Source: Thiorhodospira sibirica ATCC 700588 (lineage in GTDB: Bacteria; Pseudomonadota; Gammaproteobacteria; Ectothiorhodospirales; Ectothiorhodospiraceae). Taken from it: DNA of 57,941 nt. The notes below the pieces were generated by a model. That model saw only the letters and a program-made list of their open reading frames with translations. It was not told where the DNA came from and did not search any database. The stretch is taken from the NCBI RefSeq assembly GCF_000227725.2, contig NZ_MU255056.1, positions 2,511,992-2,569,932 of the forward strand. The letters are read 5' to 3'. The first letter of the stretch is position 1, and each line of letters opens with the position of its first letter. The translations under genes were made by a program, and so were the position numbers. Of this stretch, positions 1-34,052 are shown piece after piece.

Positions 1-512
1 GTTCTTCGCTGTAGGCGGGGAGAAAGCCGGTATCCAAGCCTTCACTGGCGCCAAGTTCATGGAGCATTCGCAGGATGCTGGGTTGGGAGGGTTTGAGAAT
101 GTGTACCGAGGTTTTGAGTAATTCGCCCTTGGCGCAAACCCGCTCAATCAGGGGTGTCACCGGGCTGGGTGGGAAGAAGACGGTGGCGGGTGGGGAAAAT
201 GGCGGTGAGGCGGTGGCTGTCTGCTGGGCTTCGAGTTCTTGCCAGCGAGCGATGATACGCATCCTCAAGACGGGATCATAACCACTGACCAAGGTTAGTG
301 TAGTTAATTTATCCAGCCGGTACTGCGTTCGTTTTTTCCTTGCACATCAACATAAGATTCTGATTCACAATGCCAATCCAGATTTGGATCGGCCTCCAGG
401 CGCGTAATCATGGTGCGTATGTCCCGCAGGATATGCGGATGTTGTTTCCGGTCAGGTCCGCAATTTCGCGGCTGGTCATGGATAATGCCGGATTCAAGAA
501 CGTTTGAGACAT
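1..512 (-). pseudogene. Rha-family phage-type regulator, frameshifted, cut by window edge
   Basis: The reading frame starts at the ATG at 512 with GGAG upstream (start MSQTFLNPALSMTSREIADL) and has to be followed through three frames. The pieces join as a DNA-binding-type segment (HILRDIRTMI), then NLDWHCESESYVDVQGK, then YRLDKLTTLTLVSGYD followed by RMRIIARWQELE. The last segment is characteristic of Rha/pRha-type phage regulators. Each break is restored by adding one A to a short A run (near 462-464 and near 333-338), so this is either a decayed gene or two homopolymer sequencing errors. After the Rha core comes a proline-rich linker and a C-terminal segment that continues beyond base 1. 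Rha proteins are usually prophage-borne; no other phage gene is visible here. Confidence 0.72.
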
Positions 513-797
513 GAGCAAGTTTCTCCGTAAATTTAAGGATAAACCGCCGTATATAGTGCAAAGTATAGGGACGGCGGATTGCGCAAGGTTTGCACTACCG
601 TTACAGAGAAACCGGCCACCGGGAAGGTGCCCTGCGCAAGCCACCACAGCGAAATGATAGGCAGGAAAAAACGCGCCGGATTATGGCGAGCGTGGGTTAT
701 GGTCTCTGTTTTCGGGGTGCAAATCCCGACACCATTTACACGGTGCATGGCAAGCTTAGGCAAGCCCATTCGCCCTGTCAACCGGGTGTGAAGGAGC

Positions 798-814
798 GCC
801 GAGTGGTACTCGGC
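798..814. repeat. Palindrome GCCGAGT-N3-ACTCGGC, copy 1
   Basis: A 7-bp inverted repeat with loop GGT. The same palindrome with other 3-base loops occurs at 841-857 (GCA), 23122-23138 (TAT) and 57552-57568 (TGT). Confidence 0.75.
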
Positions 815-840
815 CAGCTCCAACGCCAGGCTTAAAACCC

Positions 841-857
841 GCCGAGTGCAACTCGGC
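841..857. repeat. Palindrome GCCGAGT-N3-ACTCGGC, copy 2
   Basis: Identical 7-bp arms to copy 1, loop GCA, 26 bases after it. Followed directly by GATCC, as copies 3 and 4 are preceded by GGATC. Confidence 0.75.
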
Positions 858-897
858 GATCCCAATGGCGACATCATCCTGATGCCGCAAACAGAAA

Positions 898-918
898 GCG
901 ACACCGGGAAGGTGTCGC
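898..918. repeat. 8-bp hairpin with 5-base loop, downstream of DUF1566 gene
   Basis: Arms GCGACACC and GGTGTCGC with loop GGGAA. It lies about 20 bases beyond the stop codon of the DUF1566 gene at 938-1957 (minus strand). The intervening segment is repeated beside the DUF1566 gene at 33369, which also ends in an 8-bp, 5-base-loop hairpin of different arm sequence. It may act as a transcript end, or as the downstream hairpin known to aid DGR retrohoming; similar hairpins elsewhere in the window have no such gene beside them. Confidence 0.7.
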
Positions 919-937
919 CACGAAGGCCAAAAGCCCA

Positions 938-1957
938 TTACTGTCGCGCGCGAACGAGACGCACCCGGTAAGCATAGTACTTGTAGTAATGGCTGACAGG
1001 ACCGTTATCGAAGCCCACGCACCACGCATGGCCACTATTATAGGCATTGGGCGAGGACGACCAAAACCAACTAGATGGCGTGTTGGGAAAGGCCTGTTCT
1101 ACGATGGTGGGACGGTGGTAACCGCCACTACAGAATGTAAAGTCAGCCTCCATGCCAAATTCCTGTGGTAAACCTGTGGAGCAGTAGACCAGGCTGCGCA
1201 GTTCGGTGCGATTAGGCAGACGAAAGCCTCCGGGAGGAGTCAGGGCGATGGCATCGTCCCAGGTAAACCTGCCAGCCTCGCCATCACAGGATTGCTGCGC
1301 TGAATTCCAGGTCTGCCCCACGGAGCAGCGCTGCCATTCCAGGTCGGTGGTGATGTCGCGGATGATGGAGCCGTCTTCGATGGGTAGATAGCGCCCGGCG
1401 ATCAGATCATCATCCGGGCTGGAATCCGGTGTGCGAACGAGGCGTACCGAGCGATTATTATCAATAGATTCATAATTAACATAACCAGCATTAAAGGTTA
1501 CATGCCACGCATAACCACCATCTCTTGCATAGGGCGATGATGACCAAAATGCTGTTGATGCTGTATTGGGAAAAACAGTGATATTAGCAGATGGAATACA
1601 GCTTCTTTCTACAATAGACATCAGTTCACGACGATTAGGTAAACGCCAATCTGTATAGCCTGCAAATTCAGTGTTTTGTGCGGTTTGCAGGGCACCAACC
1701 CAGGTGTAAGTTGATGCATCACCAATACAGGTATTGTTATCCCATATTTGACCCAAACTGCAGCGCATCCACATCAAGCCCGTTTTGGTATGTGTAGCTA
1801 CACCATTTTCGTGCAATATAAAATCAGTGGTGGGAGTAGTAATGGGTACACTAGGATCTTGGCGCATACATATTACATCAGCTAGCACCGCAGCGGGCAA
1901 AGTGATTAACACCATCAACACGATGCCAAGCATATGGAATTTTATTCTTAAAAGCAT
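938..1957 (-). CDS. Secreted protein with two DUF1566/Lcl-type domains; C-terminal one carries a candidate DGR variable region
   Basis: A 339-residue protein with an N-terminal signal peptide (about residues 1-26, ending ...AVLADV). Two DUF1566 domains follow, roughly 45-175 and 188-336. Each has the family marks: GLMWMRC or DLEWQRC near the start, a WRLP or FRLP motif, FWSSSP and a closing VRLVR. The domain is a C-type-lectin-like module commonly used for extracellular binding; the ligand is unknown. The second domain is nearly identical at DNA level to two domains of the gene at 2119-5412 except in its last 33 codons, where changes are confined to AAY-type codons. The first domain uses different codons and lacks that pattern. 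It lies 161 bases downstream of the 2119-5412 gene on the same strand and may be co-transcribed with it. Confidence 0.85.
   Translation of the reverse strand: MLLRIKFHMLGIVLMVLITLPAAVLADVICMRQDPSVPITTPTTDFILHENGVATHTKTGLMWMRCSLGQIWDNNTCIGDASTYTWVGALQTAQNTEFAGYTDWRLPNRRELMSIVERSCIPSANITVFPNTASTAFWSSSPYARDGGYAWHVTFNAGYVNYESIDNNRSVRLVRTPDSSPDDDLIAGRYLPIEDGSIIRDITTDLEWQRCSVGQTWNSAQQSCDGEAGRFTWDDAIALTPPGGFRLPNRTELRSLVYCSTGLPQEFGMEADFTFCSGGYHRPTIVEQAFPNTPSSWFWSSSPNAYNSGHAWCVGFDNGPVSHYYKYYAYRVRLVRARQ
950..1048 (-). other. Candidate DGR variable region in DUF1566 domain (gene 938-1957)
   Basis: Residues 304-336, from the codon after FWSSSP to the end of RVRLVR. Compared with 4159-4257 and 3676-3774, 17 of 33 codons differ. 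In 15 of the 17 the third base is the same (C or T) in all three, and the other 16 codons are base-for-base identical. Variable codons here include AAT, TAT, GGC, TGC, GAT, AAC, CCT, AGC and TAC, all reachable from AAC or AAT by changing only adenines. The invariant end reads CGGGTGCGTCTCGTTCGC on the coding strand, a plausible initiation-of-homing segment. Confidence 0.75.
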
Positions 1958-2118: not shown

Positions 2119-5100
2119 TTAGCGTATCACACGAACGAGACGTATCCGTGCACGTTGTTCAGCTACCTTTTCATAATCGTTGACTAGGCCATCATAAAAT
2201 CTCACACCCCATGCATACATATTTATAATGGACGTAGATGTGGATGACCAAAATACACTGGAACTCCCCTCAGGGAAGTAGTGAATATCAATAGCAGGAT
2301 CAAAGCGCCCGGCATGGACAAGAGATTCCAGTTCATTGATGTCTGGAAGACGCCAGTCATTGGCGCCACACAAGCCCTGAGCGTTTACCGCTTGCACATA
2401 ACCTAGTGTGTCGCAAGCACTGCCTACGCACCTACCGCCATTTTGTGTGCCTGCATCTCCGCCGTTGGTGTTGGGATCGGGGTTGTACCAGGAATAGGTG
2501 TGACCATGATAACGCAGGGTAGACTCATTGACCTTGACCTCCCAGATCAGACCGGTGACGTTATCTTGTACGCATGACCAGCGCGTGCCATCGGTTTCAT
2601 TGCCGCCATCACTCCAAGGCATGTTCTGAATGGCCAGCGGTCTGCCGTTGGCATCGAGCTTGGTGTAGTCAAAGCCTGCCGCACCTGCGCCTATCTTTTG
2701 CAGTTGCCCTTGGCGTGCTAAGGCATCGCGGCCATGATCACCATCTTGGTCTGGAAAACCGGCAACCGGGCAGCTCAGGTTATTGCTGCTGTTATCGGCA
2801 CACCAGTCAATGCCGGTGTCGTTTAACGGGATAGCACTGTTGATAACGACAGATGGGGGTTCAGTCTCAATTGCCTGCGGGGTGGCCGCAACTGCTCCGG
2901 TCAATATGGGGCTGTCGATGCCTTGGCCTTCAACTTGCAATACCACGTAATATTCCCTGCTATTATCCAGGCCACGGAGGGTGTAACCACTGCTGACATT
3001 GCTAAACATCTGGCCATTGGCGCAACGGCTGTAGTTACTGATATCGCAGTTGGCATCGCTTGAAATGAACAGGTTGTAGACATAGCCTGATGTTTCATTC
3101 CATGAAGCGGTGATCTGGCTATCACCGGCCTCAAGCCTTAACTCAGGTAGAGGGTGTTCAACCTCGTTTGGATTGCGAACGAGACGCACCCGGCTTGCAT
3201 TGTCTTGGAAAGATCCGAAGATGCTACCGTTATCGAAGTCTACCTGCCACGCGCTAGTATCCATGCCAGAGCCTCCACTGTAGGATGACGACCAGAAATA
3301 AACGTAAGGTATAGGCATATTGGGAAATGCATGTTGCACGATGGTAGGACGCTGGAAATCGCCACTACAGCGTGTAAAGTTTGCATCCATACCAAATTCC
3401 TGTGGTTGGCCGGTGGAGCAATAGACCAGGCTACGTAACTCGGTAATATCAGGCAGGCGGAAACCTCTGGAATCTGTCAGTTGCATAGCATTATCAAGGG
3501 GATATCTAACCCAGTCAGCCTCGCCATCACAGGATTGCTGTGTGGCGTTCCAGGTCTGCCCCACGGCGCAACGCTGCCATTCCAGGTCGGTGGTGATGTC
3601 GCGGATGATGGAGCCGTCTTCGATGGGCAGGTAGCGCCCGGCGATTAGATCATCATCCGGGCTGGAATCCGGCGCGCGAACGAGACGCACCCGGAGAGTA
3701 TTGCTCTTGTAGCCGTTGAGGACACGACCGTAATGGAAGTCCACGCCCCACGCATGGACACTACTATAGGCATGGGGCGAGGACGACCAAAACCAACTAG
3801 ATGGCGTGTTGGGAAAGGCCTGTTCTACGATGGTCGGACGCTGGTAATCGCCACTGCACGCTGAAAAATTTGCATCCGTTCCGAACTCGTGTGGTTGACC
3901 TGTGGAGCAGTAGACCAGGCCGCGTAGTTCGGTGATATCAGGTAAACGAAAGCCACCGGGGGCAGTTAGGGTAACGGCATTGTCCCAGTTAAAGGTACTA
4001 GCGTCGCCATCACAGGATTGCAGCACTGCATTCCAGGTTTGCCCCACGGCGCAGCGCTGCCATTCCAGGTCGGTGGTGATATCGCGGATGATGGAGCCGT
4101 CTTCGATGGGCAGGTAGCGCCCGGCAATTAGGTCGTCATCAACGGTGGGCTGCGGCGCGCGAACGAGACGCACCCGGCTTGCAAAGCTCTTGCTGCTGCC
4201 GCTGACACGACCGCTATTGAAGCTCACGAGCCACGCATGGAGACTATTACCGGCATCGGGCGAAGACGACCAAAACCCAAGAGATGGCGTATTGGGAAAA
4301 GCCTGTTCTACGATGGTCGGACGCTGGTAATCGCCACTGCACATTGTATAGTCTGCATCCATACCAAATTCTTGTGGTAAACCTGTGGAGCAGTAGACCA
4401 GGCTGCGTAGTTCGGTGATATCCGGTAGACGAAAACCACCCGGGGCGGTCAGGGCAACGGCACTGCCCCAGCCAAACCCGCTAGTGTCGCCATCACAGCT
4501 TCGCTGCGTGGCATTCCAGGTTTGCCCCACGGCGCAGCGTTGCCATTCCAGGTTGGTGGTGATATCCCTGATGATGGAGCCGTCTTCGATGGGTAGGTAG
4601 CGCCCGGCGATCAATTGCGCCGTGGCGGCGTGTGGCGTGCCACTCACTACCGCACTGGGGCTGCTTTCAACCGTGTTGCGTTGACTGGTTAAGACAACAT
4701 AATAGGTCGTGCCATTGTTAAGCCCGCTTACACGATGCTGTGTCACATTTCCCAGGACTACTCGCTGCGTAAAACTGTTATTGACATCTGGATGGATATT
4801 GGAATCCGTGCCGTAATACAGCACATACGCTGTGGCATTACTGACAGCATTCCAGGACAACTCGATACTTTGATCGGCTGCCACGGCCACAAGATTTCCC
4901 GGTGCCGGAGGTGGTTGTGTTGTTTCCACCACAGGCAAGGTGTTTGCCACAATCTGGCCATTTTGATCCACCTGAATGCGCGTATCGCTGCTGTTCTCAC
5001 CTACCTTGATGCGTGGCGTTTCCCCTTGGCGGTTGACGGGTAAGCTGAGCATGAGATTACCCGCATGGCGAATCTCTACGCGGCCCGTATTGACATTGAA

Positions 5101-5412
5101 GCGGTATGTGTATTGATCGCTGTGTGGCAGGGTGAATTGCGCATGACGGGCAATAGCGGCGCTTAGATGTGCGATGCGGGCGTTGGTATCTTGCAGGATA
5201 ATATCCAGCGTACCGTATTGGGTGTTAGGCCGTGGGTAAAGGTTGACGGTGCCACTGATCCAAACGGTGGTATTGGTGCTGTCAAGGTAAGCCGTGCCGC
5301 CATTTAACTGTAAAACGGTTGCCTGTACAGCGGGCAGGCTACTTAAGCCGAATAAGAGCAGTAGAAAGACGATGGTATGCCGTAGGCGGTGTTGGGATCG
5401 TAGTGAGTCCAT
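2119..5412 (-). CDS. Large secreted multi-domain protein: FN3 plus four DUF1566/Lcl domains, two with candidate DGR variable regions
   Basis: A 1097-residue protein. A signal peptide (about 1-31, VFLLLLFGLSSLPAVQA) is followed by a beta-rich N-terminal region (32-160) and a fibronectin type III domain (about 168-262, ELSWNAVSNATAYVLYYG). Three tandem DUF1566 domains follow (about 267-418, 428-579, 588-747), joined by near-identical linkers ending LIAGRYLPIEDGSIIRDITT. Then come a second FN3 (about 752-846) and a longer Lcl-type domain at the C-terminus (about 855-1097, NDWRLPDINELESLV, VFWSST, IRLVR). The layout suggests a surface-exposed or secreted binding protein. Domains 1 and 2 carry DGR-like hypervariable cassettes; domain 3 and the C-terminal domain do not. 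Internal variable regions are unusual, since most known DGR targets vary only at the C-terminus. Cysteine pairs (QRC...SC; YCSTG...CSG) recur in each repeat. Confidence 0.85.
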   Translation of the reverse strand: MDSLRSQHRLRHTIVFLLLLFGLSSLPAVQATVLQLNGGTAYLDSTNTTVWISGTVNLYPRPNTQYGTLDIILQDTNARIAHLSAAIARHAQFTLPHSDQYTYRFNVNTGRVEIRHAGNLMLSLPVNRQGETPRIKVGENSSDTRIQVDQNGQIVANTLPVVETTQPPPAPGNLVAVAADQSIELSWNAVSNATAYVLYYGTDSNIHPDVNNSFTQRVVLGNVTQHRVSGLNNGTTYYVVLTSQRNTVESSPSAVVSGTPHAATAQLIAGRYLPIEDGSIIRDITTNLEWQRCAVGQTWNATQRSCDGDTSGFGWGSAVALTAPGGFRLPDITELRSLVYCSTGLPQEFGMDADYTMCSGDYQRPTIVEQAFPNTPSLGFWSSSPDAGNSLHAWLVSFNSGRVSGSSKSFASRVRLVRAPQPTVDDDLIAGRYLPIEDGSIIRDITTDLEWQRCAVGQTWNAVLQSCDGDASTFNWDNAVTLTAPGGFRLPDITELRGLVYCSTGQPHEFGTDANFSACSGDYQRPTIVEQAFPNTPSSWFWSSSPHAYSSVHAWGVDFHYGRVLNGYKSNTLRVRLVRAPDSSPDDDLIAGRYLPIEDGSIIRDITTDLEWQRCAVGQTWNATQQSCDGEADWVRYPLDNAMQLTDSRGFRLPDITELRSLVYCSTGQPQEFGMDANFTRCSGDFQRPTIVQHAFPNMPIPYVYFWSSSYSGGSGMDTSAWQVDFDNGSIFGSFQDNASRVRLVRNPNEVEHPLPELRLEAGDSQITASWNETSGYVYNLFISSDANCDISNYSRCANGQMFSNVSSGYTLRGLDNSREYYVVLQVEGQGIDSPILTGAVAATPQAIETEPPSVVINSAIPLNDTGIDWCADNSSNNLSCPVAGFPDQDGDHGRDALARQGQLQKIGAGAAGFDYTKLDANGRPLAIQNMPWSDGGNETDGTRWSCVQDNVTGLIWEVKVNESTLRYHGHTYSWYNPDPNTNGGDAGTQNGGRCVGSACDTLGYVQAVNAQGLCGANDWRLPDINELESLVHAGRFDPAIDIHYFPEGSSSVFWSSTSTSIINMYAWGVRFYDGLVNDYEKVAEQRARIRLVRVIR
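3676..3774 (-). other. Candidate DGR variable region, internal, DUF1566 repeat 2
   Basis: Residues 547-579 of the 1097-residue protein. Variable codons are CAT, TAT, AGT, GTC, GGC, GAC, CAT, TAC, CGT, CTC, AAC, GGC, TAC, AGC, AAT, ACT, CTC; the codons between them match the other two cassettes exactly. Hydrophobic CTC and GTC beside polar TAC and CAT at aligned sites is what random replacement of two adenines in AAC/AAT gives, and is not expected from ordinary divergence. Confidence 0.75.
4159..4257 (-). other. Candidate DGR variable region, internal, DUF1566 repeat 1
   Basis: Residues 386-418. Variable codons include GAT, GGT, CTC, CTC, AGC, AAT, AGC, CGT, AGC, GGC, AGC, AGC, AGC, TTT, GCA and AGC. 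Invariant codons GCC, CAT-GCG-TGG, GTG, TTC, GGT, GTC, AAG and the closing CGGGTGCGTCTCGTTCGC are the same as in the cassettes at 950-1048 and 3676-3774. Confidence 0.75.
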
Positions 5413-5775
5413 GATGAGTCGATGCTCTAAGGTTGGGTTAGGTCAGTGCCTTTGGGGCGCGAGTGATGACCACGGGCGTTGTCAGGGAAAACAGGAACGT
5501 GTAAAGAGGCTCCAGATATCTGGCGCGTGGGTAGGATTTCTTGGTGCGGTTACGGTTTTGCGTGTTCACGTCCAGATGCCATGCTTATGTTTATCCCACA
5601 GGATTTTTGGATTGATCCTGATACGGGTAACGATATGCAAACAGCGCAGCAAAGGCAAGGCTTTTTTGATGAAAAAATTGATTTATATCAATCATTTGGC
5701 GTTTTGTGAACTATAAAATCTACCCGCGACTACACCGTGCAGAGGTGCATCGTTTTCGCTGTGTTTGTGTGTCGC
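5413..5775. other. Intergenic region between DUF1566 gene and parA-like gene
   Basis: No gene is recognised in these 363 bases. The region should hold the promoter of the minus-strand DUF1566 gene starting at 5412. It also contains an FNR-type site with a well placed -10 element directed to the plus strand (see 5678-5724). Confidence 0.5.
5678..5724 (+). promoter_or_regulatory. FNR-type operator and possible class II promoter
   Basis: TTGATTTATATCAA at 5678-5691 is a perfect match to the FNR/CRP-like consensus TTGAT-N4-ATCAA. A TATAAA hexamer lies at 5712-5717. A start near 5724-5726 would put the operator centre at about -40 to -41.5, the class II activating position. No plus-strand gene follows; a transcript would run antisense into the 3' end of the ParA-like gene. 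Confidence 0.5.
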
Positions 5776-6573
5776 TCAGGGGCGCTGGGGGCGGATGCCG
5801 CGAATGTCTTGCCACATGAGTAATAAATCCTCTGCCAGGACGTAGTAATCGAGGCTGCCTCGGCTGCGTGGGCTGTAGAGCTGGATGGGTTTTCTGGCGG
5901 CGAAGGCCTCGGCCAGGCGGATGTCGGTGCGGATGCCGCGCAGCAGGCGTTGGCGTCCGTATTGCAGGGAGATGTTGTCGAGTACGGATTGATGACATTC
6001 GACGCCGCGTTCGAGCATTACCGGCAAAAGTCCCAGGAGTTGCAGGTGGGGGTTGATGCTGCTGCCGATGCGGAAAAACAGCCGGGACAGTTGGCGCACG
6101 CCTTCGCCCGAGAGGTGATGCGGGAGCATCGGGATGAGGATGCCATTGGCGGCGGCCATGGCGTTCATGAGCAGGATGTCGAGGCTGGGCGGTGTGTCGA
6201 TGACGATGATGTCGTAGTGTTCGGCAATCGCCGGGGCCTCTATCTGGCGTCGGAGCACCAGCAGATCTTTGGGGCCGCCGCCATGTTCGAAATTCTGGTC
6301 AGCAGGCACGAAATGCAGGCCGCTGACCAGGGTGGGCACGATGGCGCACACCAGGGCAAAATCTGGCTGCACGAACATGTCCTGCGCAGTGGGCGCACCG
6401 CGCGGACAGTTCACATCCAGCCCAACAGCCGCATGGCCTTGGGTGTCAAGGTCGATCAGCAAGACCTGATAATCGCGCTGGGCGAATTCCACGGCCAGAT
6501 TGACGGCGGTGGTGGTCTTTCCGGTGCCGCCTTTGCGATTGGAGATGCTGACCACAAACGGGAGTGGGTTCAC
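5776..6573 (-). CDS. ParA/Soj-family ATPase
   Basis: A 265-residue P-loop ATPase of the ParA/MinD class. The deviant Walker A motif KGGTGKTT is at residues 14-21, followed by a switch aspartate in LLIDLDTQGHAAVGL and the Walker B-like IIVIDTPPSLDILLMNA. Such proteins position DNA, chemoreceptor arrays or other cargo on the nucleoid through ATP-dependent dimer cycling. No parB or recognisable partner gene is adjacent: the downstream neighbour is the DUF1566 gene and upstream is a CBS-domain membrane protein. The cargo cannot therefore be read from context. Full length for the family. Confidence 0.85.
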   Translation of the reverse strand: MNPLPFVVSISNRKGGTGKTTTAVNLAVEFAQRDYQVLLIDLDTQGHAAVGLDVNCPRGAPTAQDMFVQPDFALVCAIVPTLVSGLHFVPADQNFEHGGGPKDLLVLRRQIEAPAIAEHYDIIVIDTPPSLDILLMNAMAAANGILIPMLPHHLSGEGVRQLSRLFFRIGSSINPHLQLLGLLPVMLERGVECHQSVLDNISLQYGRQRLLRGIRTDIRLAEAFAARKPIQLYSPRSRGSLDYYVLAEDLLLMWQDIRGIRPQRP

Positions 6574-6651: not shown

Positions 6652-7932
6652 TTAGCGATGCAGGCGTGGCCCGATGCGGGCGGTTTTTACGCCATTGTGT
6701 TTGATCTGTACGATTTCAATGGGGTAATGGTCAATCAGCACGCTGGTATTGGCATCGGGAATATCTTCCAGGTACTCAAGAATCAGGCCATTGAGCGTTT
6801 TGGGGCCGCTTAGCCGAAAGTGTGAGCCAAGGACGCGGTTTAATTCGCGCAGATGGATGCCGCCATCGACAATGTAGCTACCATCGGCCTGCGGGATGAC
6901 CTCCGGTGAGCGGGCGGCCGGGTCGCTGGTAAATTCGCCGACAATTTCTTCGAGCAAATCCTCCAGGGTGACCAGTCCTTGTATATCGCCGTATTCATCG
7001 ACCACCAGGCCGATGCGGCGGCGTTCACGCTGGAAATTGATCAGCTGGCGGTTTAATGGCGTGCCCTCGGGGATGAAGTAGGGATCTTTGAGCAGCAGGC
7101 GCAATTCGTCGATGCTGAAACGATCCTCATAAATCAGTGCTAACACTTTGCGTAGATGGATAAAACCCAGGACCTGATCCAGATTGCCGACATAGACCGG
7201 CAGGCGGGTGTATTGGCTGTTTACCAGTTCGCTGGCCAGCTCATCTAAATCCTTTTCCAGGTTGAGGCCGATAATCTCGTTGCGCGGCACCATGATGTCT
7301 TCTACCGTGGCTTTTTCCAGGTCAAGAATATTGATCAGCATGCGTTGATGCTTGCGCGGAATCAGGCTGCCGGCCTCGTTGACGGCGCTGCGCAATTCTT
7401 CGCTGGACAGCGCCTGCTGTTGAGCTTCGTTGGCCCGCACGCCGAGCAGGCGCAAGACCGTATTGGATAAGAGGTTTATCGACCAGACCAGCGGGTAGAG
7501 GGGTTTTAATAGCAGCGCATAAACCCGGGCAGCCGGATAGGCCAGCCGTTCGGCATACAGGGCGCCAAAGGTTTTGGGTGCTACCTCGGCAAAGATTAAC
7601 AGACACAGGGTTAACAGCCCGGTCGCCAGTGCGATGCCGATGTCGCCATACAGCCGATAGCCGATGTAGGTGGCTAACTGGGTGATCAGAATGTTGATCA
7701 GGTTATTGCCCAGCAAAATCAGGCCAATCAGCCGGTCTGGCTTGGCCAGCAGACGCTGGGCCTTGAGCGCGCCGCGATGCCCCGTTTGCGCTAAATGGCG
7801 CATACGGTAGCGGTTAAGCGACATGAGCGCGGTTTCTGAGCCGGAAAAAAAGGCCGAGCAAAGAAACAACGCGATCAGAACAGAAAATAAAACCGTGAGA
7901 GAAATGTTTTCCAAGGGCGGAAAAAACCTCAA
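6652..7932 (-). CDS. HlyC/CorC (CNNM/DUF21-CBS) family membrane protein
   Basis: A 426-residue integral membrane protein. The N-terminal DUF21 region (about 1-185) has several hydrophobic helices (LTVLFSVLIALFLCSAFFSGSE, LIGLILLGNNLINILI, IALATGLLTLCLLIFAEVAPK). A CBS pair (about 205-330, VEDIMVPRNEI, LPVYVGNLDQVLGFIHLR, GLVVDEYGDIQGLVTLEDLLEEIVGE) and a CorC/HlyC C-terminal domain (about 345-420, DGSYIVDGGIHLRELNRVLG) follow. Family members are linked to magnesium or cobalt efflux; the bacterial CorB/YtfL-type role is inferred. The first residue is taken as MRFFPPLENISL at 7932. The gene stands between oppositely oriented or unrelated neighbours. Confidence 0.88.
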   Translation of the reverse strand: MRFFPPLENISLTVLFSVLIALFLCSAFFSGSETALMSLNRYRMRHLAQTGHRGALKAQRLLAKPDRLIGLILLGNNLINILITQLATYIGYRLYGDIGIALATGLLTLCLLIFAEVAPKTFGALYAERLAYPAARVYALLLKPLYPLVWSINLLSNTVLRLLGVRANEAQQQALSSEELRSAVNEAGSLIPRKHQRMLINILDLEKATVEDIMVPRNEIIGLNLEKDLDELASELVNSQYTRLPVYVGNLDQVLGFIHLRKVLALIYEDRFSIDELRLLLKDPYFIPEGTPLNRQLINFQRERRRIGLVVDEYGDIQGLVTLEDLLEEIVGEFTSDPAARSPEVIPQADGSYIVDGGIHLRELNRVLGSHFRLSGPKTLNGLILEYLEDIPDANTSVLIDHYPIEIVQIKHNGVKTARIGPRLHR

Positions 7933-8055
7933 ATTTTGGCGGGTGCGTGGGGTGTCGTGCCGCCATGCGGCAACGACGCCAAGGTGTTCAGGCCGCTTTT
8001 CCAGGCGGCCTTAGATGATGCCAAACCGGGCGCGCTGCTCACAGGCAGGGCGTGG

Positions 8056-8739
8056 TTAGTGGCTGATCAAAGCCATGCTATTATAATGCCCCAGTACCCG
8101 TTTGACGTAATTTTGCGTTTCTGTGTAGGGCGGGATGCCGCCGTGGCGTTGCACGGCACCGGGGCCGGCGTTGTAGGCGGCCAGCGCCAGGCGGGTGTCG
8201 TGATTGAAGCGTTCCAGCATCCGTGCCAGATAGGTAATGCCGCCGCGAATATTCTGGCGGGCGTTGAAGGCATCATCCACCCCGACTTCGCGGGCCGTGC
8301 CGGGCATCAGTTGCATCAGCCCCTGAGCGCCCACGCGCGAGACGGCGAGACGATCAAAGCAGGATTCGACCATGATGACGGCGTGGACCAGGTTGGGATC
8401 AACCCGATAGTGTGCCGCGTAATGGCGGATGATCTCTTGATAGGGTGCAGCGCGATCACTCATGACGCGGCTGTTGACGCCCTGACAGGATGCCGTGGCG
8501 GTGGGGCGGCCATGGGTGCCGATGAAGGTGTAGCCGGCGCCCATGTCGCGCCGGTCAGTAAACCAGCGGGTGCCGTCTTTGTCACGATGGATGTAGATCT
8601 CGGCATGGACCAGCAGCGGTGCGCTGAGCAGGCTCAGCCCGGCCAGCCAAAGTGCCAGAGTGTAGGCGCTGCGGGGCGCGAGGCGAGGGCGGTGGCGACA
8701 CCCGCCCAGCGGGATCATCCTCTTGAATAATGCATACAT
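8056..8739 (-). CDS. Lytic transglycosylase (SLT domain)
   Basis: A 227-residue periplasmic or outer-membrane-associated protein from the ATG at 8739 (MYALFKRMIPLGG). An upstream in-frame ATG at 8937 is rejected because that part overlaps birA on the other strand. A basic N-terminus and hydrophobic segment (LALWLAGLSLLSAPLLVHA) form a signal peptide. A short DUF4124-like stretch (IYIHRDKDGTRWFTD) precedes the SLT domain, which has the catalytic glutamate in AVIMVESCF, GLMQLMPGTA, and NIRGGITYLARML ... ALAAYNAGPGAV. It would cleave the glycan strands of peptidoglycan. It is divergent from birA with a short shared promoter gap of about 40 bases. Confidence 0.88.
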   Translation of the reverse strand: MYALFKRMIPLGGCRHRPRLAPRSAYTLALWLAGLSLLSAPLLVHAEIYIHRDKDGTRWFTDRRDMGAGYTFIGTHGRPTATASCQGVNSRVMSDRAAPYQEIIRHYAAHYRVDPNLVHAVIMVESCFDRLAVSRVGAQGLMQLMPGTAREVGVDDAFNARQNIRGGITYLARMLERFNHDTRLALAAYNAGPGAVQRHGGIPPYTETQNYVKRVLGHYNSMALISH

Positions 8740-8779
8740 GGCGGCTGCGTATTCCCATCTAATTAAAATGTCGGAATGA

Positions 8780-9622
8780 TTGACCGTGCGCGACGATACG
8801 ATGTTATCCGCTGAGCGGGTATTTGCGGCCCTGCCTGAGCGCTTGCAGCACAGTTTGCCCAAGCCGCTGGTGTTGGCCTCGGTAGATTCTACCCATGCCA
8901 TGCTGTTAGGCCAAGCGCGTAGTAAAAAGCACATCACATGCCAAATCTGTCTGGCGGAGTATCAAACGGCGGGGCGCGGTAGGCGCGGTTCTTGCTGGGT
9001 GATGCCTGCAGGCAGCGGTATTGCCTTATCCTTGCTCTGGCCAGTGGATGCATCAAGTGCGCTGGCACCCACACTGAGTCTGGCCTTTGGGGTGGTGATC
9101 GCCGAGGCGCTGGAACGGCTGGCGCCATCGCCAACGGCGCATATCGGTTTGAAATGGCCCAATGATCTGCTGGTCGAGGGTCAAAAACTCGGCGGTCTGA
9201 TTTCTGAGGCGGTGTTTTGTGGGGGACAGCCCAGGGCCTTGGTGGTGAGCGTGGGACTGAATGTGTGTTTGCCCGCTGATGCACCGATTGATCAGGCCTG
9301 GACAGATCTGGTGCGCACCGGCCTGCAGCCGCCCAAGCCTTCGCGCTCGGTGATTGCGGCGGTGCTGATCACCGCTCTGGTGGATGTTCTTGACACCTAT
9401 CCGGCTCACGGGTTTGCCGCCTATGCCCCGCGTTGGCAGGCGCGTGATGTGAGTCATGGGCGCGCGGTCAGCTTTATCCAGGCCGGTCAGACTATGCAGG
9501 GGATTGCCCAGGGGCTTGATCTTGAAGGTAATCTGCGGGTGCTGTGTCAGGGACAGACCTATACCCTACGTTCGGCGGAATGCAGTTTACGCATAGCCAC
9601 TGACACACCCTCCCGGCGCTGA
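8780..9622 (+). CDS. birA: Biotin--[acetyl-CoA-carboxylase] ligase
   Basis: About 280 residues. It attaches biotin to the carboxyl carrier protein of acetyl-CoA carboxylase through biotinyl-AMP. The ligase core shows TAGRGRRGSCW (biotinyl-AMP loop), LKWPNDLLV and KLGGLISE, then a C-terminal SH3-like domain. The N-terminal winged helix of E. coli BirA is absent, so it is a monofunctional ligase rather than a repressor. The start is uncertain: TTG 8780, GTG 8786 or ATG 8801; none has a strong ribosome site and the conserved core begins after all three. accD, a component of the enzyme that receives biotin, is far away at 54.9 kb. Confidence 0.88.
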   Translation: MTVRDDTMLSAERVFAALPERLQHSLPKPLVLASVDSTHAMLLGQARSKKHITCQICLAEYQTAGRGRRGSCWVMPAGSGIALSLLWPVDASSALAPTLSLAFGVVIAEALERLAPSPTAHIGLKWPNDLLVEGQKLGGLISEAVFCGGQPRALVVSVGLNVCLPADAPIDQAWTDLVRTGLQPPKPSRSVIAAVLITALVDVLDTYPAHGFAAYAPRWQARDVSHGRAVSFIQAGQTMQGIAQGLDLEGNLRVLCQGQTYTLRSAECSLRIATDTPSRR

Positions 9623-25475: not shown

Positions 25476-28352
25476 TTAACCGGCCTGTTTGACCCGCATG
25501 TACCATTCGACCAGGCGACGTACCTGGCGTTCAGTATAGCCCCGCGTCACCATGCGCTCGACAAATTCATGGTGTTTGCGGTCCACATCTGAATCGGCCT
25601 TGGCGCCAAAACTGATCACCGGCAGCAGGTCTTCAACATGGGCAAACATGCGTTTTTCAATGACTTCGCGGATTTTTTCATACGCCGTCCATTCCGGCAT
25701 TTCCCCCCCCTTGCTGGCGCGGGCGCGTAGCGCAAATTTGACCACCTCATTGCGAAAATCCTTGGGGTTGGCAATGCCGGCGGGCTTTTCAGTTTTGGTC
25801 AATTCCTGATTGAGCGCCTGACGATCCAGCAGTTGTCCGGTGTCCGGGTCTTTGAAATCATGGTCTTCGATCCAGGCATCGGCATAGGCCACATAGCGCT
25901 CAAACAGATTCTGCCCAAAGTCGTGATAAGACTCCAGATAGGCCTTCTGAATCTCATTGCCGATGAAATCGGCATAGCGCGGTGCCAAATCAGCCTTGAT
26001 GATTTCCAGATAGCGGCGTTCGGTTTCCTCGGGGAATTGTTCACGGCGCAAGGCCTGCTCCAGCATATACAGCAAATGCACCGGATCGGCAGCCACCTCG
26101 CGGGTGTCGTAGTTAAAGGTCTCGGAGAGTACCTTGAAAGCAAAGCGGGTGGAAATTCCGTCCATGCCCTCATCCACCCCGGCGACATCTTTGTATTCCT
26201 GCAAGGATTTGGCACGCGGGTCAGTGTCTTTGAGGCTCTCGCCGTTATAGATGCGCATCTTGGAATACAGACTGGAATTTTCATGCTCTTTGAGGCGGGT
26301 GAGCACCGAAAAACGCGCCAGAATCTCCAAGGTTGAGGGCGCACAAGGGGCTTGCGCCAGCTCGCTGGTACTGACCAGCTTTTGATAAATCAGCTCCTCT
26401 TCGGTGACGCGCAGACAATAGGGCACCTTGATCACCGAAATGCGATCAATGAAAGCCTCGTTGTTTTTATTGTGCTTGAAGGTCTGCCATTCTGATTCGT
26501 TGGAGTTGCCGGTAATCAGCACCTTGCCATTGCGGCGCGCAATCAGCGTATGGTTCGGCGTCTCCAGGCACCAGACCATGCCGGCATAGTCAACCATTCC
26601 CTTGTTAACGTTGTCACTGCGCACCTGATTCACGCCCAGCCGGGTGTTGAGCATGAACACATCGGCATAACCTTCTTTACGACTGATGGCGCAGGTCGTT
26701 TTGCTGCCGCTCAGTGCCGCCAGTTCCTGCAGGAGATCACGATGGAAAGGCACATTGGTGCTGAGTTGGTAGTGATTCTCCCGACTGTTTTGCCCCTGAC
26801 TGCCATCAGTGATGCCCCATTCCTGCAAGAGTATCGTGGCTTGCCGGGCCGACAGGAGGCGGTGGATTTCCGTGAGTTGCTTGGTGAATTTGGCCGACAT
26901 GCGCTTGACATAAAATGCCGTGGTGCCGTCCGGAGATTCCTCACCCTGCTGCCAGGAAAAATCCAGTCGGGACAGCAGTTCCTGGAAGGCTTTGATCTTG
27001 CGGTCTTTATTGAAGTGAAAGCGATAATTAAGACGTCCGTCGTTGGCAATGTAATGGACCGAGCCTTCGGTCACACACCAGATATGGAAGCGTAACTCAT
27101 CATCACTGGCGTAGTAATCGAGATCCGGGCGCTCCAAAACGCCGGAGACGGGCAGATGTGCCCCCTTGACGAAGAAGTCCTCGGCGAGCGTTTCCTTATA
27201 AGAACCATAGGACTCGTAGATGATCTTGTGATTCGGCGTGACGAGGTGATCAGCCGCACTGCTGGAGAGGTGGTACATCGGGCCTTCGTAATACATTTCG
27301 TATTTCTTCAGCGCCGGTTGATATTCGATCTTGCCAGTCTCGCGATTAAGGGTGGCGATCAGATCATCGACCTCGACCGCTTCACGGCGCTTCCATCCCC
27401 CGACGGTGAGGATTTCGGTATCCTCGCTAAAGCAGTGCGCCATGATGATACCTTGAAAGGGAATGGCACCAATGTTTTCCGTGCCCACATAGTTGCTTTC
27501 CTGGGTGGCTGTGAGCAGCGGATGGAGCATTTTGATCGGCGCCTTAAACATCTCCACAAATTCCAAAATGCCCTGATTGGCGCGGTTCAGGCCGCCGGAG
27601 TAGCTGTAGGCATCGGTGTCATTTTGGCTATACAGCTCAAGCTTGCGGATATCCACCTTGCCCACCAGCGAGGAAATATCCTGATTATTTTCATCCCCCG
27701 GCTCGGTTTTGGACACGGCAATCTGGCGCAATTTGGACGGATACAGCCGCACCACACTAAAGCGGGAAATATCGCCGCCCAGTTCATCTAAGCGTTTGAC
27801 CGCCCACGGTGAAATTAAGCCCGTAAGACGGCGCGCCGGGATACCAAAACGCTCCTCCAGCAGCGGCCCCATCGTGACCGGATCAAACAGCCCCAGCGGG
27901 CTTTCAAATACCGGCGAAAGCTCATCGCCGACCTTGAGCACATAGATCGGATGCTTTTCCATGAGGCTTTTGAGGCGTTCTGCCAGCGAGGATTTGCCTC
28001 CGCCCACCGGCCCCAGCAGATACAAAATCTGCTTGCGCTCTTCCAGCCCCTGGGCGGCATAGCGGAAAAAGCCCACGATGCGCTCAATGGTTTCCTCCAT
28101 CCCGTAAAAATCTTCAAAGGCCGGATAGAGCTTGATGGTGCGGTTCATGAAAATCCGCCCGAGCCGCTCATCCTGGGCCGTATCGACCACCGTTGGCTCA
28201 CCGATGGCCGCCACAATGCGCTCGGCGGCACTGGCATAGTGCAATGGGTCATCCTTGCAGGCTTCAAGGTATTGTGCCAGGGACAGCTCCGCTTCCTGAC
28301 GTTTTTGATAATGACGCGCATAGTGCGCGATTAAAGTCTCTGCCGAATCCAT
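25476..28352 (-). CDS. prkA: PrkA/YeaG serine protein kinase, intein-containing precursor
   Basis: A 958-residue precursor made of 648 residues of PrkA/YeaG interrupted by a 310-residue intein (residues 307-616). The host protein has the PrkA AAA+ domain with Walker A GPVGGGKS (114-121), then the C-terminal kinase-like domain. After excision the junction reads GIIMAH-SNESEWQTF, matching the uninterrupted E. coli sequence type (AHSNESEW), so the mature protein is predicted to be intact. YeaG is a cytoplasmic stress-induced kinase acting with YeaH. Its gene is divergent from the response-regulator gene at 28617 across a 264-base gap. Confidence 0.93.
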   Translation of the reverse strand: MDSAETLIAHYARHYQKRQEAELSLAQYLEACKDDPLHYASAAERIVAAIGEPTVVDTAQDERLGRIFMNRTIKLYPAFEDFYGMEETIERIVGFFRYAAQGLEERKQILYLLGPVGGGKSSLAERLKSLMEKHPIYVLKVGDELSPVFESPLGLFDPVTMGPLLEERFGIPARRLTGLISPWAVKRLDELGGDISRFSVVRLYPSKLRQIAVSKTEPGDENNQDISSLVGKVDIRKLELYSQNDTDAYSYSGGLNRANQGILEFVEMFKAPIKMLHPLLTATQESNYVGTENIGAIPFQGIIMAHCFSEDTEILTVGGWKRREAVEVDDLIATLNRETGKIEYQPALKKYEMYYEGPMYHLSSSAADHLVTPNHKIIYESYGSYKETLAEDFFVKGAHLPVSGVLERPDLDYYASDDELRFHIWCVTEGSVHYIANDGRLNYRFHFNKDRKIKAFQELLSRLDFSWQQGEESPDGTTAFYVKRMSAKFTKQLTEIHRLLSARQATILLQEWGITDGSQGQNSRENHYQLSTNVPFHRDLLQELAALSGSKTTCAISRKEGYADVFMLNTRLGVNQVRSDNVNKGMVDYAGMVWCLETPNHTLIARRNGKVLITGNSNESEWQTFKHNKNNEAFIDRISVIKVPYCLRVTEEELIYQKLVSTSELAQAPCAPSTLEILARFSVLTRLKEHENSSLYSKMRIYNGESLKDTDPRAKSLQEYKDVAGVDEGMDGISTRFAFKVLSETFNYDTREVAADPVHLLYMLEQALRREQFPEETERRYLEIIKADLAPRYADFIGNEIQKAYLESYHDFGQNLFERYVAYADAWIEDHDFKDPDTGQLLDRQALNQELTKTEKPAGIANPKDFRNEVVKFALRARASKGGEMPEWTAYEKIREVIEKRMFAHVEDLLPVISFGAKADSDVDRKHHEFVERMVTRGYTERQVRRLVEWYMRVKQAG
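26505..27434 (-). mobile_element. Intein inserted in prkA AAA+ domain
   Basis: Residues 307-616 of the precursor. It begins with the nucleophile Cys307 (CFSEDTEILTVGGW, block A), has block B with the TxxH motif (HLVTPNHKII), and ends with block F (GMVWCLETPNHTLIARRNG) and block G (KVLITGN) before Ser617 of the C-extein. The last residue is Asn616; the usual penultimate His is replaced by Gly, a variation seen in some active inteins. A middle segment (about 417-560) has one LAGLIDADG-like stretch (FHIWCVTEGSVHYI), probably a divergent or decaying homing endonuclease. Confidence 0.9.
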
Positions 28353-33368: not shown

Positions 33369-34052
33369 TTACTGTCGCGCACGAACGAGACGCACCCGGT
33401 ACTGCGCGATCTTGTAGCGGTTACCGACATTACCGTACCCGAAGCTCACGTACCACGCATCATCAGCAGTATAACTGGCATAGGGCGAAGACGACCAAAA
33501 GAAATCAGCAGGTGTTTTTGGAAAGGCCAGCGAATCAATGGTTGGCTTGTGATAGTCACCTTCACAACGCCCAGAACCTCCTACAGGCTCGCCCGTTGCA
33601 TCAAATTCCAAAGGTTTTTGTCGGCCAGAGGAACAATACACCAGGCTGAATAATTCCTTGAGTGTCGGGAGGCGCCAATCCGTATAACCGGCATAGCCAC
33701 CGGAGGCATTCAGCGCCTGCGCGGCCTGCAAGGCCGCATCCCATGTATATTCATTGGCCTTGCCGATACAGCGCCCGTTTTCCCAGGTTTGTCCCAGACT
33801 GCAACGCATCCACTGCAGCCCCGTTCGGACATCCAGCACCGTGCCGTCATATAAATCCTGGTAACGTCGAGAACCGATAAAGCTGCGTTCATGGGCAAGT
33901 AGTTTCTCTAACTCCTCTACCCGCTTTAATGCGGCCTCATGATCTTGCAATAACTTCATCGTCCCCGCGCTGTCGCCGCTAGGAGTGGCACACATCGCCT
34001 CCAGAATTTGTGCATCTATCTCAATATCAAATGCGGTACATAAACCCTGCAA
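33369..34052 (-). pseudogene. DUF1566/Lcl-domain protein, 3' part of a broken gene
   Basis: A 227-codon frame opening at a TTG. Residues 1-60 are helical (LLQDHEAALKRVEELEKLLAHE). One DUF1566 domain spans about 65-224 (GLQWMRCSLGQTW, YTDWRLPTLKELFSLVYC, FFWSSSPYA, RVRLVR). There is no signal peptide, unlike the two DUF1566 genes at the left end. Immediately upstream, in another frame, lies the segment at 34082-34255, which looks like the natural N-terminal part. A TAG and a frame change separate them, so the original gene is probably disrupted. Its last 33 codons partly follow the AAY-variable pattern, and the 3' flank is shared with the gene at 938. Confidence 0.65.
33381..33482 (-). other. 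Possible diverged DGR variable region (gene at 33369)
   Basis: Residues 191-224. Many codons at the variable sites end in C or T (TAT, AGT, TAC, GAT, AGC, AAT, GGT, AAC, CGC), and CGGGTGCGTCTCGTTCG is kept, but GGG, GCG and CAG break the rule and there is one extra codon. It may derive from a different template or have drifted. Confidence 0.45.

Follow-up and report, generated by a model that had tools for sequence, protein, structure and literature searches.

In described diversity-generating retroelements (DGRs), the variable repeat (VR) is placed at the C-terminus of the target protein, an arrangement that has been called near-universal (PMC8144416, PMC7517822) and that a large survey credits to cis elements obliged to be non-coding (PMC8144416). 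In BPP-1, a hairpin just after the VR is needed for efficient homing (PMC3240598), and loss of the stem-loop impairs retrohoming severely without abolishing it (PMC12875486, PMC3240598). Several VRs per ORF are found in 31 of 271 multi-VR DGRs (PMC6642488). In one Thiohalocapsa target, some sites were variable more often in the third VR than in the preceding two (PMC10907252), a direct parallel to the case of the internal VRs described here. That DGR targets vary once and at the C-terminus, as the original prediction for the DNA described here assumed, holds as a rule but not as an absolute, several VRs per protein having been published (PMC6642488, PMC10907252, PMC3521204).

The locus considered here lies in a 57,941-nt stretch of the Thiorhodospira sibirica ATCC 700588 genome (the window). 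It harbors two VRs (int1 and int2) within a single gene. Each is flanked by coding sequence and has no hairpin, but both seem as well maintained as C-terminal VRs. Very probably, both are genuine DGR variable repeats that a remote cassette of Avd, template repeat (TR), and reverse transcriptase (RT) has rewritten, by what would be retrohoming in trans.

Target Gene and Domain Layout

The gene, its tandem repeats, and the variable cassettes inside them correspond to what had been predicted for a 1097-residue protein (Table 1). By inspection, the N-terminus of this protein is signal-peptide-like. Pfam identifies four Lcl_C stretches (PF07603, DUF1566) and an FN3 domain at residues 170–257. Three Lcl copies, spaced by 483 and 489 nt, form the tandem array, and the fourth closes the protein. 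The internal VRs are followed by 679 (int1) and 518 (int2) residues, and neither has the usual C-terminal layout. Among the domains expected after the variable repeats, repeat 3 and a constant Lcl domain are present. The FN3 domain expected there is less certain; the clear fn3 match sits before the repeats, and the stretch after repeat 3 reaches 16.9 bits versus a Pfam cut-off of 25, although it does match the FN3 domain of the same protein.

A model of a single repeat (mean pLDDT 74) matches the C-terminal domain of Legionella Lcl (8q4e, Z 11.9), Mtd (1yu3, Z 8.7), and TvpA (2y3c, Z 8.4); as modeled, the repeat has a C-type-lectin fold. The protein would display two C-type-lectin-like binding faces, each variable on its own, ahead of a C-terminal half that stays constant, and may serve in surface binding.

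Elsewhere in the window, a 958-aa PrkA-type kinase ORF (25476..28352, minus strand) has matched PrkA domains on either side of a large insertion, which starts with CFSEDTEIL and ends with VLITGN before SNESEW. The insertion looks like an intein, though Pfam gave no Hint domain.

Table 1. Features of the window, with divergence from the TR where scored.
Feature	Position	Strand	Details
1097-aa secreted target protein	2119..5412	minus	signal peptide (by inspection), unique N-terminal domain, FN3, three DUF1566/Lcl repeats, FN3-like domain, constant C-terminal Lcl domain
FN3 domain, ahead of repeats	4642..4905	minus	Pfam PF00041
Internal variable repeat 1 (int1, VR1), end of repeat 1	4150..4281	minus	20/37 TR adenines and 1/84 non-A changed; Fisher p=8e-12
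IMH-like 3' anchor of int1	4157..4176	minus	exact match to TR
Internal variable repeat 2 (int2, VR2), end of repeat 2	3667..3798	minus	20/37 TR adenines and 2/84 non-A changed; Fisher p=7e-11
IMH-like 3' anchor of int2	3674..3693	minus	exact match to TR
Repeat 3, decayed former VR	3160..3301	minus	IMH with 2 mismatches at 3173-3192; 24/37 A and 21/82 non-A changed; diverges at flank rate
FN3-like domain, after repeat 3	2923..3135	minus	sub-threshold Pfam fn3; 30% identity to own FN3, E 8e-8
Constant C-terminal Lcl domain	2131..2574	minus	Pfam PF07603; VR-equivalent end not a VR; 29/82 non-A differences from TR; IMH with 4 mismatches
339-aa neighboring target	938..1957	minus	two Lcl domains
Decayed internal VR-like end, first Lcl of 339-aa target	1424..1555	minus	23/82 non-A; IMH with 5 mismatches
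C-terminal VR of 339-aa target	941..1072	minus	18/37 A and 1/84 non-A changed; p=2e-10
Hairpin GCGACACC-TTCCC-GGTGTCGC	898..918	minus	3' of C-terminal VR 941-1072
227-aa DUF1566 target	33369..34052	minus	C-terminal VR (33372-33503) partly decayed; 10/82 non-A; IMH with 1 mismatch

Remote DGR Machinery

No avd, RT, or second TR was found in the window. An RVT_1 search of the same genome returns three matches, one of which is a DGR RT, a 524-aa ORF at C4:1277528-1279102 (7529..9103 of the DGR locus, L022). It carries IGNLTSQ (SQ motif) and YVDD, conforming to the (I/V/L)GxxxSQ plus YxDD signature of the DGR clade, and its closest relatives (36–46% identity) mostly adjoin TR/VR pairs. The TR, at G000:C4:1279044-1279175 (L022 9045-9176), is ~1.24 Mb away from the internal cassettes and precedes the RT ORF, whose first ATG falls within it. 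Avd (PF22296 bAvd, 45.8 bits versus a cut-off of 40; phrog_3206) is upstream of the RT, as is a 1728-aa target with a VR at its end, and a DUF1566 target directly follows the RT, giving the order large target, avd, TR, RT, small target. Both RT and Avd are apparently intact. The genome harbors the defining elements of a DGR: RT motifs, a TR near the RT with adenine-biased VRs, Avd, an IMH common to TR and VRs, and a C-type-lectin target fold.

Neither of the remaining RVT_1 matches is taken as a DGR RT. The second RT (L001, G000:C4:1983042) adjoins a Cas2 gene and is probably CRISPR-associated, while the third (L003) was matched only at the profile end. The search covered one assembly (98% complete), and an unassembled second TR is possible.

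It is proposed that the Avd–TR–RT cassette makes adenine-mutagenised cDNA from one template, which would be retrohomed in trans into at least seven VRs genome-wide, two of them inside the 1097-aa protein. On paper, the TR permits ~1.5e21 residue combinations per VR. Its codon AAG at positions 91–93 is the sole TR codon from which an adenine mutation could make a stop (TAG); this codon remains AAG in six of the seven VRs.

Adenine-Specific Divergence of the VRs

From a window that holds neither TR nor RT, the adenine rule could only be inferred at first; comparison with the real TR confirms it. Scored over TR positions 5–125 (37 A, 84 other), the three intact VRs of the window differ from the TR mostly at adenines (Table 1), and four further VRs elsewhere in the genome show 19–22 A and 0–3 non-A changes. 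The adenine bias of int1 and int2 resembles that of five C-terminal VRs of the same genome. The VRs have ~107 nt of near-identical non-A sequence in common, and this conserved stretch stops where TR homology stops.

One TR base serves as a time stamp. TR position 84 is T, whereas C occupies it in int1, int2, and three C-terminal VRs, which are five of the six VRs without a gap. T84 is present only in the sixth, the VR at 941-1072; in the 1728-aa target, a one-codon gap falls there. On the simplest reading, a recent C-to-T change occurred in the TR, and only the 941-1072 VR has been fully rewritten since. The absence of T84 from int1 and int2 would then mean that there is no sign of rewriting at either internal site after the TR change. 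Most C-terminal VRs, with C at position 84, are likewise without sign of very recent rewriting.

IMH Anchors and Decayed Copies

The 20-nt anchor at the VR end, a putative IMH that is coding in the internal copies, is identical to the TR at 20/20 positions in int1, int2, and the other intact VRs. A genome search (≤3 mismatches) returns 11 sites: the TR, the seven intact VRs, one remnant, the 227-aa target gene, and repeat 3. The remnant (G000:C4:1275354-1275373; L022 5355-5374) is located downstream of the DGR locus and consists of an orphan IMH and post-VR sequence, without a VR body.

A perfect anchor is accompanied by an intact VR in all seven cases. Among the four Lcl ends with an imperfect anchor, one mismatch goes with 10 non-A differences from the TR, two with 21, four with 29, and five with 23. 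The cause could run either way, such that anchor loss stopped the rewriting or lost rewriting let the anchor drift. In the proposed history, copies with a perfect IMH would have kept being rewritten, and those with a drifted IMH (repeat 3 and the first Lcl of the 339-aa gene) would have decayed.

Repeat 3 had been predicted to keep its end motif and to have left the system, and both expectations hold. Its motif is retained with two mismatches over 20 nt, and it diverges from repeat 1 at similar rates in the flanks (78/339) and at VR non-A positions (20/80). Its differences from the TR, 21 of 82 at non-A positions, include the codons singled out in the prediction (CAG, GTA, ATC, GGA, and CAA).

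Rewriting in Place or Duplication

Repeats 1 and 2 differ at 50 of 339 flanking positions (15%) and at 1 of 80 VR non-A positions (p=1.4e-4), and the same disparity is seen at third codon positions (20/113 in the flanks versus 1/38 in the VR; p=0.013); these p-values assume independent sites and pertain to one genome. The single VR non-A difference is located upstream of the first adenine. Of the 37 adenine sites, 12 are the same in int1 and int2, where 15 agreements are expected from other VRs. Common VR ancestry of int1 and int2 is rejected on this basis, the agreement being no higher than chance. VR cores that match the TR while their flanks have diverged, combined with independent adenine patterns, indicate that rewriting most likely occurred in place at both internal VRs, following repeat duplication, and retrohoming at both sites after the repeats separated would be the simplest account. 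The sequence comparison thereby supports the prediction of two independently rewritten sites in one chain. Its alternative, the mere duplication of an already diversified gene end, is disfavored by the unequal divergence of VR and flanks.

In a stepwise form of that alternative, only the terminal copy was rewritten at any time, and int1 and int2 have been frozen since. The 483-nt periodicity clearly shows unequal duplication, the newest TR base (T84) is absent from both internal VRs, and two other internal copies have decayed, all as such a history would have it. Frozen VRs, however, are predicted to gather non-A changes at the flank rate (~12/80) instead of the one that is seen, and the sparing extends to third positions, making this history unlikely.

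Recombination between VRs is more improbable still. A common IMH and VR DNA would allow in-frame crossovers that move diversified modules inward, with the DGR acting at gene ends only; the junctions just past the IMH in both window genes and the duplication of the DGR locus in the surrounding block are consistent with it, but module shuffling would also bring donor flanks, and the flanks of repeats 1 and 2 differ where their VR cores do not. Ordinary gene conversion from C-terminal VRs, for which the near-identical non-A sequence offers a recombination substrate, is very improbable as the source of the homogenised internal VRs, since it copies adenine sites too and no VR of the genome matches int1 or int2 there (best 19/35, p=0.026 uncorrected), and since the conserved stretch ends at the limit of TR homology.

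Origin of the Locus

Window positions 1-921 and 4966-5977 are 99% and 95% identical, respectively, to flanks of the DGR locus (L022 4346-5268 and 14592-15603), and positions 2273-2823 are 81% identical to the last Lcl body of the 1728-aa target, with the match stopping near the VR start. On the basis of these identities, the window locus resembles a duplicate of the DGR locus that lacks avd–TR–RT. It would have arisen as a segmental copy, within which a 161-aa DUF1566 module was then tandemly duplicated. A similar history has been proposed for the distal targets of Pseudogulbenkiania, which are >370 kb away (PMC3521204). The duplicated flanks include part of a pRha-like gene (PF09669) and a truncated ParA-like gene.

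Target-Site Requirements and Present Activity

A stem of 8–9 bp is found 46–54 nt from the anchor after five of the six fully or partly preserved C-terminal VRs. No hairpin of the BPP-1 type was found after int1 or int2. A strong stem is also missing after many VRs of related loci; its absence at the internal sites is therefore not decisive, and the hairpin as a universal requirement is rejected for this clade. The hairpins in the genome may be terminators or interspersed repeats. No orthologue with the same architecture was found among 47 genomes of the order or in the viral contigs searched.

It is tentatively suggested, at somewhat less than an even chance, that these hairpin-free, coding-internal sites are actively rewritten with the coding IMH as sole guide, that both lectin faces of the protein are live and vary separately, and that IMH drift retires modules. 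The decayed copies, with 1–5 IMH mismatches, are natural controls at the locus, making the target-site requirements directly testable. With two internal patches instead of a single end patch, the count of variable binding surfaces appears doubled, and two variable faces per chain would alter the size and avidity of the DGR repertoire.

Comparison with Known Systems

Among 75 TR/VR pairs from related loci, a non-random sample gathered through RTs, 73 VRs lie no more than 40 aa from the end of the protein, and the other two (L060 and L063) are internal. The latter (L060 2655-2784 and L063 4091-4221) are in the N-terminal part of DUF1566 proteins of other bacteria, with hundreds of residues after them; the L063 frame appears shifted close to its end. 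Internal VRs are rare, and tandem VR domains in one protein have already been published.

DGR 4/5 of Thiohalocapsa PB-PSB1 (PMC10907252) similarly has one target with tandem VR-bearing C-type-lectin domains, has lost the RT at the locus, is probably served in trans by the TR/RT of another DGR, and has VRs that vary to unequal degrees within one protein. It differs in that three tandem CLec domains are borne on a vWA protein that belongs to a conflict system. In contrast, the Thiorhodospira target has DUF1566/Lcl repeats, is apparently secreted, and continues for ~500 constant residues, with a constant Lcl domain, after its last VR.

The three-VR ORF of Marichromatium purpuratum 984 also combines several VRs and tandem paralogous domains in one ORF, but is of the FGE-sulfatase type, and its authors are unsure that the ORF is real (PMC3521204). 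The Vibrio cholerae and Stenotrophomonas targets share the DUF1566 domain and one system serving several VRs; however, the VRs are C-terminal in separate genes in V. cholerae and in different ORFs in Stenotrophomonas (PMC6642488). BPP-1 shares adenine-specific change and a VR with a 3' IMH common with the TR, and differs in the hairpin that follows its VR for efficient homing, which the Thiorhodospira internal VRs do not have (PMC3240598).
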